Assembly: GCA_944322305.1 (NCBI GenBank)
Contig: CALUOP010000003.1
Location: 186,001 to 250,000 of the forward strand
Source: an uncultured Coriobacteriaceae bacterium
Lineage (GTDB): Bacteria > Actinomycetota > Coriobacteriia > Coriobacteriales > Coriobacteriaceae
Reading direction: 5' to 3'
DNA length: 64,000 bases
Made by a program: the position numbers and the translations under genes. Shown here one piece after another: positions 12,461-48,231 of this stretch; the first letter of the stretch is position 1; the number at the start of each line of letters is the position of its first letter. Under the pieces are notes generated by a model. That model searched no databases. It saw only the letters and a program-made list of their open reading frames with translations, and had not been told where the DNA came from.

Positions 12461-13318
12461 CTAGTTCTCCTCGTCCGTTATGAGCTCGGGATTTGCCGCG
12501 GCGACCTTGTCGATATAGGCAAGGTAGTCTGCCTCACACATAAGGTCGTCGGGAACCGTGCCCCGCGTTGCGCCGGAACGCACCATTTTTACGAGGTTCT
12601 CCCAATACGTCTCCACCACACCGTGACGTCGCTCGGCGCGCATGCGATACCACATCGGCGCCCCGCGATCCTCCCTGAAGCCCTTGCCCGAACTGTTCTC
12701 TGTGTTCGACTTGTTCTTAACCTGAAACAGGGCGGTGCACGACTCGTTGCAGAAGTCTATTGCCGTAAGGATCTTCCCGCGACACCAAATCCATCCGAAG
12801 GGAGCGATTTTTGCCGCAATATACTCCTCGAGCAGGTTCCCTCCCACGTTTTCAGCCGACATGAACAGGCTGTGATGCGCGGCCCACGCGTAGGCAGTCC
12901 GTACGCTTCCGGCAAACGCCGGTGCGGCAACCATATGTATAAGCGCTTCATCGGTCACCGTGTTCTTAGGTTTGGCCACGCGGCTTGAAGGCAGGCTATG
13001 CCACTCAACGGCGAACTTTCTCACCCATTTGGAAAACCACAGCCTCAAAAAAGCTTCGTCAGACAGACCCAGATCCTCTTCACGCAGGGGAATAGAGGGA
13101 ATGAACGACGCTGTTTCCCGCATCAACAAAACAGGAAAGAGAGCTTTCATCTCTGCCGCGCGCGTTTGCGGGTCTATCACTTGGCCGTCTGCAGTCAGCA
13201 CCGCGTCGACCACGTCTTCGAACAGCGGCTGAACAGGCGTATGGTGAGAGTTGCAGTATCCCATTGCGTCGGCAAGGCGCTGCCTGACGTTGTCTTTCGA
13301 TGCCGATCTGCGAGGCAT
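12461..13318 (-). CDS. type II restriction endonuclease, SinI family
   Basis: A 285-aa protein whose central block (ENVGGNLLEEYIAAKI, then WCRGKILTAIDFCN and LFQVKNKSNTENSSG) matches what I know of the SinI-type restriction enzymes. D of AIDFCN and the Q-V-K of FQVKNKSN fit a PD-(D/E)XK-like catalytic centre. SinI cuts GGWCC, so this enzyme may recognise GGWCC or a relative; that is inference. The gene is divergent from a C5 cytosine methyltransferase across a 126-bp gap, the expected layout of a restriction-modification pair. The frame appears intact. Confidence 0.8.
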   Translation of the reverse strand: MPRRSASKDNVRQRLADAMGYCNSHHTPVQPLFEDVVDAVLTADGQVIDPQTRAAEMKALFPVLLMRETASFIPSIPLREEDLGLSDEAFLRLWFSKWVRKFAVEWHSLPSSRVAKPKNTVTDEALIHMVAAPAFAGSVRTAYAWAAHHSLFMSAENVGGNLLEEYIAAKIAPFGWIWCRGKILTAIDFCNESCTALFQVKNKSNTENSSGKGFREDRGAPMWYRMRAERRHGVVETYWENLVKMVRSGATRGTVPDDLMCEADYLAYIDKVAAANPELITDEEN

Positions 13319-13444
13319 AGCGCTCCTTCCGTACCGCCTGTTTTGTGGTTCTCATTGTACCCGCCGGTGCGGATACTCTCAGTAACGATATATGGTATGC
13401 TGGACTAAATTATTTTCGTTTTTGAACTTACAGGAGTCCACATT
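13319..13444. promoter_or_regulatory. divergent promoter region of the R-M system
   Basis: This 126-bp gap holds both promoters. A TATGCT hexamer at 13396-13401 is a possible -10 for the methyltransferase, and AGGAG at 13432-13436 is its ribosome site. No clear -35 is visible. The methyltransferase carries its own HTH domain, so it may bind here and set the nuclease/methylase balance. Confidence 0.4.
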
Positions 13445-14812
13445 ATGTCGCTACAAGAGGCCGAGCTTCTCTCTTCTTCCGAAGTTGCCCAGGCGCTCGG
13501 CGTCACCCCGCAAACGATAACGCGGCTTGCCCGCAGCGGGGAGCTCAACTGTACCATGGTGGGAAGCCGCCGCGTGTTCACGCGCGCGTCTTTGGAAACG
13601 TACCTCGCCGAGCACAACCTATGCCGTGCGCCTGCAGACCATCCGCGCGCCACGGGCAACCTCCCCAACGTTGTTGCGGTCTCGTTTTTCTCGGGGGCCC
13701 TCGGACTCGACATCGGCATGGAGCAAGCCGGCATCCACCCACTTCTGTACTGCGAAAACGACGCGAAATGCCGTATGACCATCGCAAGCAACCGCCCCGA
13801 CGCCGCGCTTGTGGGAGACATCAATCGCGTTTCCGCAGAAGAGGTGCGCTCTCTTGCCCGCATCCCCGAAGGACGCAGCGTTGACGTGATGTTTGGCGGG
13901 CCGCCCTGCCAGGCATTTTCAACGGCTGGCGCGCGCCGCGCGTTTGACGACAGCCGCGGCAATGTGTTTCTCAAATACCTGGATCTTGCTGAGCAACTAC
14001 AGCCAACCTACCTTGTTATAGAAAACGTGCGCGGGCTTTTGTCCACCGCCTACCCGCTCCGCCCCAACGAGGCACCGGTTCGCGGCGGCGCCATGCGGCT
14101 GGTGCTCAACCGTCTGAAGCGCATGGGCTACGGCGTGAGCTTCAACCTGTACAACGCGGCAAACTTCGGAGCGCCGCAGATTCGTGAACGCGTGGTTATT
14201 ATCGCTAAGAAAACGGGCGAGACGGTGCCGTGGCTTGTCCCGACGCACACCAGCGAAGCCGCATGGGATCTGCCCGCCTGGCGCACGCTGGGCGATGCGC
14301 TTGCCACCATAGACGGCCCGCAGCACTACGTGCAGTTCCCCGAGAAGCGCCTGCGCTATTTCAAGATGCTGAGCGCGGGACAATACTGGAAAGACCTGCC
14401 CGCCAACCTGCAAGAGCAGGCCATGGGCAAGGCGTATCGACTTTCCGGCGGTAAAACGGGCTTTTATCGGCGGTTGCGCTTTGATCGGCCCTGTGCAACG
14501 CTAGTTACGAGCCCCACTATGCCGGCAACGGATTTGTGCCATCCAACGGAAGATCGACCGCTTTCGGTTGAGGAGTACCAGGCCATTCAAGAGTTTCCCC
14601 ACTCGTGGGTGTTCAGAGGGTCGATACAAGATCGCTACCGCCAGATTGGCAACGCCGTGCCGATAGCGCTGGGCACCGCTATCGGCCGCACAATCTTGTC
14701 CGACATCCACGACAGCGAGTCAGCACGGGCGCAAGCCGACCGGTTCTTGGAATTTCCATATTCCCGCTATAAGAACTCAAACCAGCTAACATGGAATCTT
14801 GCCCAAGGATAA
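13445..14812 (+). CDS. DNA (cytosine-5-)-methyltransferase with N-terminal HTH domain
   Basis: A 455-aa enzyme that protects the cognate site of the neighbouring nuclease by C5 methylation. Residues ~8-55 (LLSSSEVAQALGVTPQTITR ... GSRRVFTRASLETYL) are an excisionase/MerR-like helix-turn-helix. The methylase follows: motif I VSFFSGALGLDIGMEQAG, motif IV GGPPCQAFSTAG with nucleophile C155, motif VI ENVRGLL near residue 193, motif VIII REREVV-like segment (RERVVIIA), a target-recognition region, then IX/X ending YRQIGNAVPIALG. C5 methylases fused to an HTH (M.EcoRII, M.SsoII type) repress their own promoter, so autoregulation is a reasonable inference here. Confidence 0.93.
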   Translation: MSLQEAELLSSSEVAQALGVTPQTITRLARSGELNCTMVGSRRVFTRASLETYLAEHNLCRAPADHPRATGNLPNVVAVSFFSGALGLDIGMEQAGIHPLLYCENDAKCRMTIASNRPDAALVGDINRVSAEEVRSLARIPEGRSVDVMFGGPPCQAFSTAGARRAFDDSRGNVFLKYLDLAEQLQPTYLVIENVRGLLSTAYPLRPNEAPVRGGAMRLVLNRLKRMGYGVSFNLYNAANFGAPQIRERVVIIAKKTGETVPWLVPTHTSEAAWDLPAWRTLGDALATIDGPQHYVQFPEKRLRYFKMLSAGQYWKDLPANLQEQAMGKAYRLSGGKTGFYRRLRFDRPCATLVTSPTMPATDLCHPTEDRPLSVEEYQAIQEFPHSWVFRGSIQDRYRQIGNAVPIALGTAIGRTILSDIHDSESARAQADRFLEFPYSRYKNSNQLTWNLAQG

Positions 14813-14870
14813 ACCCCACACCGGAGTCGCGTCGGCAAATCCCGTGACGCGGACAAACAAGGGAGAGCGC

Positions 14871-15602
14871 ATGGGCGCCAACGCAAACAGTACGCGCAAA
14901 CATACAGCAGCAATCACGCGGGATGAAGCGCCGGCGAACGGCGAGCATGCGCATGCGCGTGGCCGCAGCAGCACGACAGGCAGTTCCCACGTGTTCAACA
15001 CAAGGAACGAAACCCCAGGCATCCACAAGCCCGCCCGCGAGATTCCGGCGGACGGCGGCCGCATACCTGCCGACGACACCAAGCAGCTCGCCGACGACAT
15101 CCTCTTCCTCAACGAATATGAGTACGAAAACGACCTGCTCACCGAGTTCGCGCGGCTGCAGGTGACCGACGGCGTGCGCTGCGGGCTGCTTGTCGGCGGC
15201 GTGGCGCTGGCGGCTGCGGGCGCGGCGTGGCTGTTCTCGCCCAACGCCTTTGGCTGGATCGGCATCTTCTTGGTGCTGATCGGCGTGTTTTTGGTGTGGT
15301 ACCGCACGCAGATGTTCCACGTGCTGGCAAAACGCTACATCGACGCCATGGAATCCGGCGAGGGATCGCTTTCCGGCCGGTGGCGGCGGGTGGCGGCCAA
15401 CAACGACGGCCTCATGGTCTTTGCGGCCGACGGGCGGTCGCACTACTTCCCGTTCAGCAACCTCAAGCGCTTCCGCGTGAGCGACCTGCTGATCGTCGCG
15501 GAGTTTGGCGACGAGGGCGTGGCCGTGCCGGCGCAGACTTTCATCCGCGGCAACGCCGAGGACTTCGCTCAGTTTTTATACGAGAAGCGCTACGGGCGAT
15601 AA
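14871..15602 (+). CDS. two-TM membrane protein with YcxB-like C-terminal domain
   Basis: 243 aa from the ATG at 14871 behind GGGAGAG. An in-frame ATG at 14799 lies within the methyltransferase end and lacks a ribosome site. A ~95-residue polar N-terminus is followed by two adjacent hydrophobic helices (GLLVGGVALAAAGAAWLF and WIGIFLVLIGVFLVWY). The C-terminal domain (DGLMVFAADGRSHYFPFSNL ... VAVPAQTFIRGNAEDFAQFL) looks like YcxB. Such proteins are small membrane proteins of unknown role. It follows the methyltransferase by 58 bp, but nothing ties it to restriction. Confidence 0.75.
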   Translation: MGANANSTRKHTAAITRDEAPANGEHAHARGRSSTTGSSHVFNTRNETPGIHKPAREIPADGGRIPADDTKQLADDILFLNEYEYENDLLTEFARLQVTDGVRCGLLVGGVALAAAGAAWLFSPNAFGWIGIFLVLIGVFLVWYRTQMFHVLAKRYIDAMESGEGSLSGRWRRVAANNDGLMVFAADGRSHYFPFSNLKRFRVSDLLIVAEFGDEGVAVPAQTFIRGNAEDFAQFLYEKRYGR

Positions 15603-15679: not shown

Positions 15680-16700
15680 TTGACGCCATTGGCTAGTGCG
15701 GGCCTGTTAGCCGCGGTTTCGACATTTTACTGGGCGTTTGATCGCCGCGGCAGCATATAAGAACCCAGGCGGACGCCTTGGCAGCGCGCGACAGTCCGTT
15801 TGGTCGCGCTAACGACATACAGGGGCCCGATCAGACGCCCAGACAGCGCGCAGGAATCTCGCTTGGTCGCGCTTGAGACATGCAAGGGCCTGAGCGAGTG
15901 TTCCAGCCGTGCGCGACAGCCCAGTTGGACGCCCTGACGACATATAAGAATTCACTTAGCCGCTCTGCCGACATGCAAGCTTCCGGTTGGTCGCTGTTTC
16001 GACATCGCCTGAGCGGTTAGGAGCTTCGACTGCATCTAATTCCCAATTTTCCGGGAGATAGATGCGCTTTGCGCGACCAACCGGTTCTTAGATGTCGGAC
16101 CCGCGTCCAACCGAGGCCTTGGACGACGGAGCGGCGGTCAGAAAACGCCCAGCGGTCGTTTACGCGACCAAGCGAGAAGCGCCCGCCGGCTTTGCGCGAC
16201 ACATCCGCGGGCAACGTGATCCCCCGATGGCAAAACTGCGATCGGGAGGCGCTTGGCGGCCGTTTCCGCGACCAACCGAGAAGGCCGCTATGACCTCGCG
16301 GGCAGCATCCACGGCCGGCAGAAACCCTGCCGGCCGAAATTGCGAGCGGAAATCGCTTAGACGTTGTTCTCGCGACCAACTGCATGCGCGGCCGGTCGCC
16401 CTCTCTCCGCAGCCGGCGGGTTGGTCGCTCCGGCGCCATGCAAGGCTGCGGTTGATCGCTGTTTCGACATCGTGCGAGCGGTTAGGAGCTTCAACGAAAT
16501 CTAATTCCCGATATTCCGGGAGATAGATGCGGTTTGAGCGGTTAAGCGATTCTTGGATGTCAAACCAGCGTTCAACCGGAGCCTTGGATGACGGAACCGT
16601 GACCGGAAAACGCCTCGCGGTCTTTTCCGCGGGCAACTAGAACAACGCGGTGAGCGTCAACCGAGACCGTGAACGCGGTTGGTCGCAGCCGTGCCGCATA
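15680..16700. repeat. mosaic repeat array I with two hairpin cores
   Basis: No coding sequence is supported across this kilobase. It is built from degenerate ~28-36-bp units of the form TTGGTCGC-N4-6-CGACAT-NNAAG, for example at 15799, 15863, 15987 and 16421. After each core they turn over to GCGACCAA orientation (16074, 16165, 16277, 16371). Two hairpin cores sit inside: 16031-16066 (GCATCTA ... TAGATGC around TCCC ... GGGA) and 16499-16530. The same cores and boxes recur at 30.4-30.9, 41.2-41.8 and 47.5-48.2 kb. Confidence 0.75.
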
Positions 16701-16874
16701 GGGCTTCACCTGCAACAACCCGCGCATTTCTCGTTGCCTTCCAGTTGCCTCTTAGTTGTCTTCGCGGGGTTCGCGCACGTTCAATGAGGCAATGCGGGGT
16801 GCGGCATAGGCCGTGTCACTCGCCGCATGGGCCCGCATCCTACGCACACAAAAACGCCTCGGAGCGGCGCTCGA
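16701..16874. other. intergenic sequence with no recognised feature
   Basis: Between the mosaic array and the SRP RNA nothing coding or structured stands out. Confidence 0.4.
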
Positions 16875-24994: not shown

Positions 24995-25019
24995 GCGTTG
25001 CGCTTGAAGCTCCGTTGCG

Positions 25020-25215
25020 CCCGCAGCCCCCGGTTGCGCTAGTACTTCTTGGTTCCGCTAGTTGTTTGTACCTATAAAAACGCTCCGCTTGCAAAACTTT
25101 CCTCCTAGAGTCCCTTTTCGGCCTCCAGGGCGTATAAGAATGCAAACAGAGCGTTTGTACGTGCAACAAATACAAGCGGAACGTGTTTATATGCGATAAA
25201 CACAAGCGGAACGGC
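25020..25215. repeat. short intergenic repeats with hairpins
   Basis: Repeated words GTTCCGC/GCGGAAC and TTTGTA: ACAAGCGGAACG occurs at 25171-25182 and 25202-25213, and CGCTCCGCTTG near 25080 is its inverted form. 25183-25190 pairs perfectly with 25196-25203 (GTGTTTAT/ATAAACAC). No gene is supported. Confidence 0.5.
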
Positions 25216-30375: not shown

Positions 30376-30379
30376 CGGT

Positions 30380-30950
30380 TGCTCGCGGTTCCGACCGCCA
30401 AGGTTCCGGTTGCCCGCGGATGTGTCGCGCAAGGCTGGCGGGCGCTTCTCGCTTGCCCGCGAGAACGACATCTAAGCGATTTCTGTCCGCCACTCCGTCA
30501 TCTAAGGCTTCGGTTGAACGCTGATCCGACGTCTAAGAAACGGTTGGTCGCACAAAGCGCACGCAACTCCCGGAATATCGGGAATTAGATGCCGCCGCAG
30601 CTCCTAACTGCTCGGCCGATGTCGAAACGGCGACCAACTGGAAGCTTGCGTGTCGTTGGGGCGGGCAACTGATCCTCCTTGCAGAGACCAGGCGCTCGGA
30701 TGAATGCTTGCACATCGTCGGAGCGGTTAGCTGGAACGCCTCACGTAGTCGGGGCGACCAACCGCATCCTTACATGTCAGCAACGCGACCAACCGCGCGC
30801 GGGCGAGGCTGCTTGGTTGCACCCACGATCCGCTCCCCGTTGCCCTTCTCGCCCGCAACGCCTTTCTCGTCCACGCCGCTCCTCTCGCAACCAACCGTCC
30901 CACGCCGCCCTTCTCGCCCACGCCGCCCCTCCGACGCGCCTCTCGTCTAG
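30380..30950. repeat. mosaic repeat array II with one hairpin core (reverse orientation)
   Basis: The core at 30564-30592 (ACTCCCGGAATATCGGGAATTAGATGC) is the reverse complement form of the cores at 16 kb. GGTTGGTCGC lies before it (30542) and GCGACCAACT/ACC after it (30632, 30757, 30785). TTAGATG-type and CCTAAC words are placed as in array I. From 30838 TTCTCGCCC-type words dominate. No gene is supported. Confidence 0.75.
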
Positions 30951-41239: not shown

Positions 41240-41800
41240 GCGGCGGTTGGCGCGCGGGTGCGGATGGGGGCGGCGCGGCGGGCGGGCAGCGGAGCGTTTG
41301 GTCGCCGCCGTGTCGTATAAGCGTCGAGAAGCGCAGAGCAGCAGCTCGCTTGCCCGCGGTTCCGTCGTGCAATCAGCGGGAGCGGGGCAGACGGACGCGC
41401 GAGAAGCTCGGTTGCCCGCTTTTCCGACATGCAGGCGAGCAGCGCGGGGCAACGCGCCGCCGGATGCCCGCCTTCCCGACATGCAAGTGAGTGCGGGCGG
41501 CCGGTTGATCGCTTTTTCGACATCGCGGATACGGTTAGGAGCTGAAGCGACATCTAATTCCCGGATTTCCGGGAGTTGGATGCGGCCTGGGCGACCAAAC
41601 GCTCGTTAGATGTCGTAAGAGCGATCAGCCGAGGGCCTACGTGACGCTTCCGCGGGCAACGGCGCGGGAAGCTATGCGTAACCGTCACTTCCTCGGAGCC
41701 GCAGGAACCAGACGCGACAGTTGCCCGCGATCTTGTCGCACAAGTGCGGGCGCATAAGCTTGTGGGGAACGACAAGGCATGCGCAACCGTCGCTTCTCCA
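41240..41800. repeat. mosaic repeat array III with one hairpin core
   Basis: Core at 41551-41583 (CATCTAATTCCCGG ... CCGGGAGTTGGATG). Before it are units such as GGTTGCCCGCTTTTCCGACATGCAGG (two near-copies about 41420-41490) and GGTTGATCGCTTTTTCGACATCG. After it comes the inverted set GCGACCAAACG and TTAGATGTCG. No gene is supported. Confidence 0.75.
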
Positions 41801-47534: not shown

Positions 47535-48231
47535 CTGTAGGCGCGGGGCGGGTTGCCCCGGTTGCGCGCCCTCTTGTCCGATAAGCGCCAGGCACCACAA
47601 GCCGGCGGTGCAGTTGCCCGCGGTTCTGCTCGATAAGCACCGGGCAGCGTGACGGGTGGAAGCGGTTGCCCGCAGACTCGTCGCGCAAGCGGCTGGAGGG
47701 ACCCGGTTGCCCGCGACAATGACGTGCAGGCCCCCGGTTGGCCGCGTCGGCGGCAGCCAAGCCTCCGGTTGACCGCTGTCATCGCAGGTAACTTCCATTT
47801 GGTCGTTCGAATCGCAGCTAAATCCCGGATTTCCGGGATTTAGCTAACGTCGGAGCGACCAAACGCTTCGACGGCGACAGAAGCGCGGGCAACCGAGCCC
47901 TTGCGCGACGCGCCGGCGACCAGCCGCACATCCCGCAGCCCAGTTGCCCGCCCTTCTGTCCGCTAAGCGCCAAGCGGTGCGGAGCGGCGGCGCAATTGCC
48001 CGTCAGTTCGTCCGGTAAGGATCGGGCGAAGCCCGCGGCAAGACCAGCTGCCCGCGATTCTGTCCGATAAGGGCTGGGCGAAATGTGCGGCAAGCCCGGT
48101 TGCCCGCAGATTCGTCGCGCAAGCAGCTAGAGGGGCCGCGGTTGCCCGCGACAATGACGCGCAGGCGGCCAACCGCATGCCCCGCAGCGCGGTTGCCCGC
48201 GGGCTCGTCGCGCAAGCGGCCGCTCCGCGGG
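47535..48231. repeat. mosaic repeat array IV with a near-perfect hairpin core
   Basis: Core 47818-47847 is a 14-bp perfect stem with a TT loop (AGCTAAATCCCGGA/TCCGGGATTTAGCT). Around it are at least nine units beginning GTTGCCCGC, several continuing TTCTGTCCGATAAG or TTCGTCGCGCAAG, spaced ~30-55 bp. Just right of the core the units are inverted (GCGACCAAACG, GCGGGCAACCG), then the original direction resumes. No gene is supported. Confidence 0.75.

Follow-up and report, generated by a model that had tools for sequence, protein, structure and literature searches.

A 64,000-nt stretch of an uncultured Coriobacteriaceae genome (the window) contains four arrays of short directional boxes that converge on palindromic cores. 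The window corresponds to C3:186001-250000 of the host genome, G000, an assembly of 2.35 Mb in 15 contigs; G001, G002 and G003 are congeners. Copies of the array family are dispersed over the host genome and restricted to its lineage; their boxes are phased with the DNA helix and conserved amid near-random spacers, and their arms show no compensatory changes. A phased, double-stranded protein-binding array fits both the phasing and the lack of compensation. We consider it on balance probable that a candidate oligomerising DNA-binding protein sits on the phased boxes and forms a symmetric assembly at the core; with moderate confidence, the arrays look like an undescribed system of protein-bound DNA landmarks.

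Phased boxes around a palindromic core

A sequence-only reading of the window had described five hairpin cores at four loci, with at least 15 boxes of opposite polarity on the two sides. All five cores lie where it placed them (dyad centres in Table 1). Boxes on the left of a core face right and those on its right face left, and TTGGTCGC/GCGACCAA boxes number 18 in the window, against 3.6 expected and a count attained in 0/100 shuffles. The four array loci hold 16 of these boxes; the claim that all are non-coding stands for the 16 and fails for the remaining two (5222 and 42535), which are inside called genes. The repeat unit, first put at 28-36 bp, is 30-31 bp long and comprises two short boxes, GTTGnnCGC and CGaCAtcTAA.

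Alignment of 66 copies is gap-free over 124 bp, with AAcTCCCGGA/TCCGGGAgTT as the core sequence. Box starts cluster at -94, -63, and -33, and the mirrored ends at +33, +63, +94, and +124. Some positions favour particular box variants, for example GTTGAACGC at R2 and GTTGCCCGC at more distal positions. Information is highest at the centre and declines outward, and the limits of similarity are inconsistent between copy pairs, with no sharp common ends. The imperfect dyad proposed earlier is confirmed and is conserved from about -95 to +125 bp; its arms are not maintained as a hairpin, and what was called a 'hairpin core' is more aptly described as two paired palindromic half-sites.

Distances between consecutive boxes of the same direction are close to whole helical turns (30/31, 41-43, 52, 61-63, 73, 83, 93, 104, 144, and 218 bp), so that the boxes face the same side of B-DNA, as a row of bound proteins would require. 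The best period of the box spacings is 10.40 bp (R = 0.83, n = 316), and phasing persists when multiples of the 30/31 unit are removed (R = 0.73, n = 107). Pairwise identity between copies is 0.759 in the boxes and 0.303 in low-information spacer columns (background 0.270). Identity in the boxes shows little correlation with identity in the spacers (r = 0.18), boxes remaining ~75% identical even in copy pairs whose spacer identity is below 0.25.

The two arms of a copy are no more complementary to each other than to the arms of other loci: among 66 copies, complementarity is 0.521 for own arms vs 0.520 for arms swapped between loci, and among 27 copies 69.2% of cells are paired vs 70.5% in shuffles. 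As a positive control, REP-like palindromes of G003, retrieved with a search pattern that demanded conserved flanks and not complementary variable letters, had fully complementary variable letters in 5/5 cases.

Copy number, placement, and spread among relatives

A genome-wide search for further copies, as the sequence-only reading had proposed, uncovered ~72 array loci in G000 (profile built from 27 copies, loci tallied manually from its matches), or roughly one every 30 kb. Nearly all copies have gap-free scores of 62-163, far above the shuffled-window maximum of -58, and in both the profile and the gap-free scans match scores grade continuously into weak copies. The gap-free scan under-represents copies with indels; in a gap-allowing profile search nearly all loci matched at full length without net indels. 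Copies are dispersed, some of them recently, as the dyad of locus 2 (30514..30637) shares 85% identity over 332 bp with a copy on a different contig (L109). Mapped against genes called with a simple codon-score script, 65 of the 66 copies examined are intergenic (median region 815 bp), and the copies have no consistent orientation relative to genes. The flanking pairs are 38 tandem, 15 convergent, and 12 divergent, and a promoter or terminator role was rejected. Nor are the arrays regularly spaced on the chromosome (coefficient of variation of the gaps 0.94, not more even than random). At L116:1537-3295, two tandem dyads lie upstream of an MraZ-family gene.

Beyond the host species the family is scarce. 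Searches with blastn in 40 relatives found no relative of the array sequence, and a profile search of 67 family and 400 class genomes placed the family only in the host species and at three loci of G003. The exact core pattern matched twice across 84,980 species, a set that may not include the host's own record, with both matches judged chance, and no array sequence was present in the viral contigs, phages, and plasmids searched. One G003 locus (L129/L076) is 99.76% identical to G000 over the 5.4 kb that begin at the array edge, vs 86.6-90% to the left of it; this jump at the outer array edge (L129:8198 / L076:4738) marks a recombination or contamination breakpoint. The second (L128/L123) is part of a kilobase block ~98.5% identical to G000. 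Both near-identical blocks are either recent exchanges or draft-genome contamination. The third locus lies in DNA that has no equivalent in G000. Next to the array at the second locus, ~150 bp (L123:2196-2350 vs L128:8350) with the REP-like GGGACAGGGGACTTTG is present in G000 between TTGCAC direct repeats and absent in G003.

The intergenic region at the signal recognition particle (SRP) RNA locus measures 1271 bp in G000 vs ~90 bp in G001 and G002. Orthologous intergenic regions are mostly shorter at other pairs too (G002, G003), so that arrays were either gained in G000 or lost in the congeners. Typical copy pairs are more diverged than the fourfold sites of G000 and G003 (spacer identity 0.30, close to its floor of 0.27; fourfold identity 0.64, floor 0.43). 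Either the family arose before the species separated and has disappeared from relatives, or its spacers outpace fourfold sites.

Congeners have arrays of their own, built from other words. In G003, TTTGGTGTG arrays account for 107 sites genome-wide vs 9 for a reversed control. We tabulated exact boxes in at least 20 two-strand clusters among the places listed, setting aside one single-strand cluster; boxes run + then - in 20/20 listed clusters (19 in G003 and the remaining one in G000), with same-strand boxes spaced by close to multiples of 21 and a central gap of 59 + 21n. The G000 cluster (C9:70329-70522) is an array of this G003 word with G003 geometry (three + boxes, then four -, gap 59), and is possibly an exchange in the opposite direction. 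G003 also has ATCGAGTTG arrays, spaced mostly by 29-31 and 60-64 with a central gap of 116 at two loci, while the arrays of G002 consist of CGTCCCGGCTTGGGAG, with a central gap of 86-87, spacing of 32/60, and mixed orientations at one locus. In the window itself, a second box of unrelated sequence, TTCCGCTTG, forms a small array (Table 1); another cluster of it is at L082, position 1543. Because the G003, G002, and TTCCGCTTG arrays converge similarly, one layout is shared by unrelated sequences. Arrays of different species did not coincide at orthologous places: the seven non-exchanged intergenic regions compared with G003 contained none of its listed clusters, as judged by an informal cross-reading of the lists. 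Intergenic units containing TGCATGCA around a centre in G003 (L166:10630-10840) are a further possible family. A general scan of a small sample of other genera for arrays of repeats, confounded by coding repeats, gave no clear convergent array; in one of them, G063, alternating inverted CTCGATCTGTAACA / TGTTACAGATCGAGA at L192:7921-8779 and 14527-15067 is more REPIN-like.

Known repeat classes, rival explanations, and the favoured reading

The arrays resemble several known classes in part. With miniature inverted-repeat transposable elements (MITEs) and the ERIC/RU, RUP, and BOX repeats they share small size, dispersed non-coding intergenic placement, and dyad symmetry (PMC2759123, PMC3049150). 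Those elements have defined ends, whereas the arrays combine centred conservation and ragged ends with helix-phased rows of boxes. Conserved terminal inverted repeats like those of MITEs are absent, information fading by ~125 bp, and the regions compared with G003 align too poorly at their borders to define insertion ends for a target-site duplication. Directional boxes, helical spacing (here 10.40 bp, R = 0.83), and variable spacers recall iteron and centromere-like arrays such as plasmid parC, tubC, and replication iterons. Those arrays occur at one or few sites per replicon, adjoining the gene of their protein; in contrast, the ~72 loci described here are chromosomal and inverted about a palindromic core. 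ParR/TubR/Rep-type proteins were not encoded by the neighbouring genes scanned, and no genome-wide search for them was made. Long inverted arms of short tandem units are also found in Drosophila foldback (FB) elements, which are eukaryotic transposons; no homology is implied. CRISPR-like array growth, which would combine conserved boxes with variable spacers, was discarded, since recent copies have spacers in common and the box variants depend on position. The open-access literature held no matching class, subscription journals being outside that search, and the arrays were unmatched in Rfam at gathering thresholds, where the window matched only tRNA and SRP RNA. The earlier remark that no described repeat class was known with this layout holds in both searches.

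Repetitive extragenic palindromes (REPs), bacterial interspersed mosaic elements (BIMEs), and REPINs are short, intergenic, multicopy, inverted, species-specific, and persistent units, and BIMEs are bound by host proteins (PMC2817692, PMC8049555). The arrays likewise occur in many species-specific intergenic copies, and G000 has a single RAYT-like Y1_Tnp gene, L183 (C4:265091-265420). However, this gene is flanked by its own REP, GGTTGGGGACGTG..CCATCTGACC, with no array boxes bordering it, and Y1_Tnp had no match in G001 or G002, though G002 has arrays of its own. REPs are hairpins with compensated changes that border their RAYT gene (PMC2817692), and the arrays are neither; REP/BIME units alternate, whereas array units run one way toward a single centre. 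Because the sole Y1_Tnp/RAYT gene carries a different repeat, and with no compensatory changes in the arrays, we rejected membership in this class and regard a hairpin repeat moved by a RAYT transposase as very unlikely. A large structured RNA, one of the roles first suggested, or a single-strand DNA hairpin is marginally less likely still. One copy folds better than shuffles (z of -4.3 on the + strand and -3.3 on the - strand), as an imperfect palindrome would; this reading fails because complementarity is no higher between own arms than between swapped ones, covariation being absent in the 27 and in the 66 copies alike, and the B-DNA phasing of 10.4 bp, the lack of an Rfam match, and the inconsistent orientation to genes all argue against it.

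The main rival, which we regard as unlikely, is a non-autonomous mobile element of the MITE or foldback type, in which the boxes would be multiple transposase sites in facing ends and the transposase would be lost or unrecognised. Tn7- and Mu-type ends bind transposase at multiple inward-facing sites and offer a precedent for the layout. Dispersal, in part recent, the mostly shorter orthologous regions of congeners, and the turnover of families between species speak for such an element. The selfish repeat of the sequence-only reading may likewise apply, in that copies do disperse. Against it, conservation is central and fades outward to inconsistent limits without sharp ends, boxes are kept in copies whose spacers are near-random, and no array half flanked a transposase gene in the stretches read. 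An old repeat family in neutral decay, now functionless and known through its most recognisable surviving copies, is improbable. It would account for scores that grade continuously to weak copies, and the search does favour copies retaining boxes and spacing; yet decay should strike boxes and spacers alike and bring indels, whereas box identity hardly depends on spacer identity and nearly all loci found are full length without net indels.

We therefore favour protein-bound arrays over these alternatives, and infer protein binding, oligomerisation, and selection that keeps resident copies. Each locus would be a double-stranded DNA platform for a sequence-specific, oligomerising candidate protein, whose protomers would read the directional 30-bp units (GTTGnnCGC plus CGaCAtcTAA) at whole helical turns; the two opposed rows would meet at the palindromic core in a symmetric complex of ~200-250 bp. 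The protein array that the sequence-only reading had listed among possible roles thus gains support from the 10.4-bp phasing, the fixed spacing, and the box-only conservation. Several points weigh against it. A binding protein was not found, and no genome-wide search for one was made. Since the copies are related to one another, nominal p-values exaggerate their independence. The columns assigned to boxes and to spacers were selected by conservation and their contrast is partly built in; TT and CGC positions that hardly vary, next to nearly random letters, can be seen without column selection. Phasing is less clean in the G002 arrays (spacing 32/60), and strict lineage restriction with several families per genus is unusual for a housekeeping site.

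The function of such complexes is the most speculative part. Because the arrays favour neither promoters nor a gene orientation and are not regularly spaced, we guess at chromosome-organising or insulating anchors, an idea that is rather unlikely to be right. Slightly more doubtful is its extension to the genus, a chromosome-wide network of directional nucleoprotein anchors that uses several unrelated words in three species and would be read by fast-evolving DNA-binding proteins, each species or family having its own code. If it existed, bacteria would have oriented, sequence-coded chromosome landmarks or loop anchors. If a protein reads the arrays, they would represent an undescribed sequence-coded nucleoprotein system that spans the whole chromosome, and the change of code between close species would be open to direct study. 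Bacterial interspersed repeats are mostly explained as RAYT-moved hairpins or transposon remnants; here, the layout of the arrays persists while their sequence changes between congeners, with B-DNA spacing and no compensation. Phasing together with the comparison of own and swapped arms provides a simple discriminator of protein-site arrays from hairpin repeats elsewhere.

Features of the window

Table 1. Arrays and conserved dyads in the window (window coordinates; a slash marks the array centre)
Feature	Position	Strand	Details
Array locus 1 (two tandem dyads)	15690..16695	.	boxes + + + then - each side of cores
124-bp conserved dyad, core 1	15987..16110	+	centre 16049
124-bp conserved dyad, core 2	16452..16575	+	centre 16514
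Small array, second unrelated box TTCCGCTTG	24997..25215	.	boxes + + + / - -; spacing 55, 30 / 30; central gap 90
Array locus 2	30377..30795	-	boxes + + + + / - - - -; spacings 31, 104, 30 / 31, 93, 31
124-bp conserved dyad, array locus 2	30514..30637	-	centre 30576
Array locus 3	41295..41720	+	
124-bp conserved dyad, array locus 3	41505..41628	+	centre 41567
Array locus 4	47560..48210	-	chiefly GGTTGCCCGC-type units
124-bp conserved dyad, array locus 4	47769..47892	-	centre 47831

Locus 1 occupies most of a 1.27-kb region between a gene end at 15602 and the SRP RNA at 16868, and its two dyads are 79% identical to each other over 216 bp. The gene ending there (14871-15602) encodes a conserved 243-aa protein that has no match in Pfam or NCBIfam. 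At 12461-14812, a SinI-type restriction endonuclease and a C5 cytosine methylase with a helix-turn-helix domain form a restriction-modification pair that is apparently inserted, as the genes flanking it are adjacent in G001 and G002.
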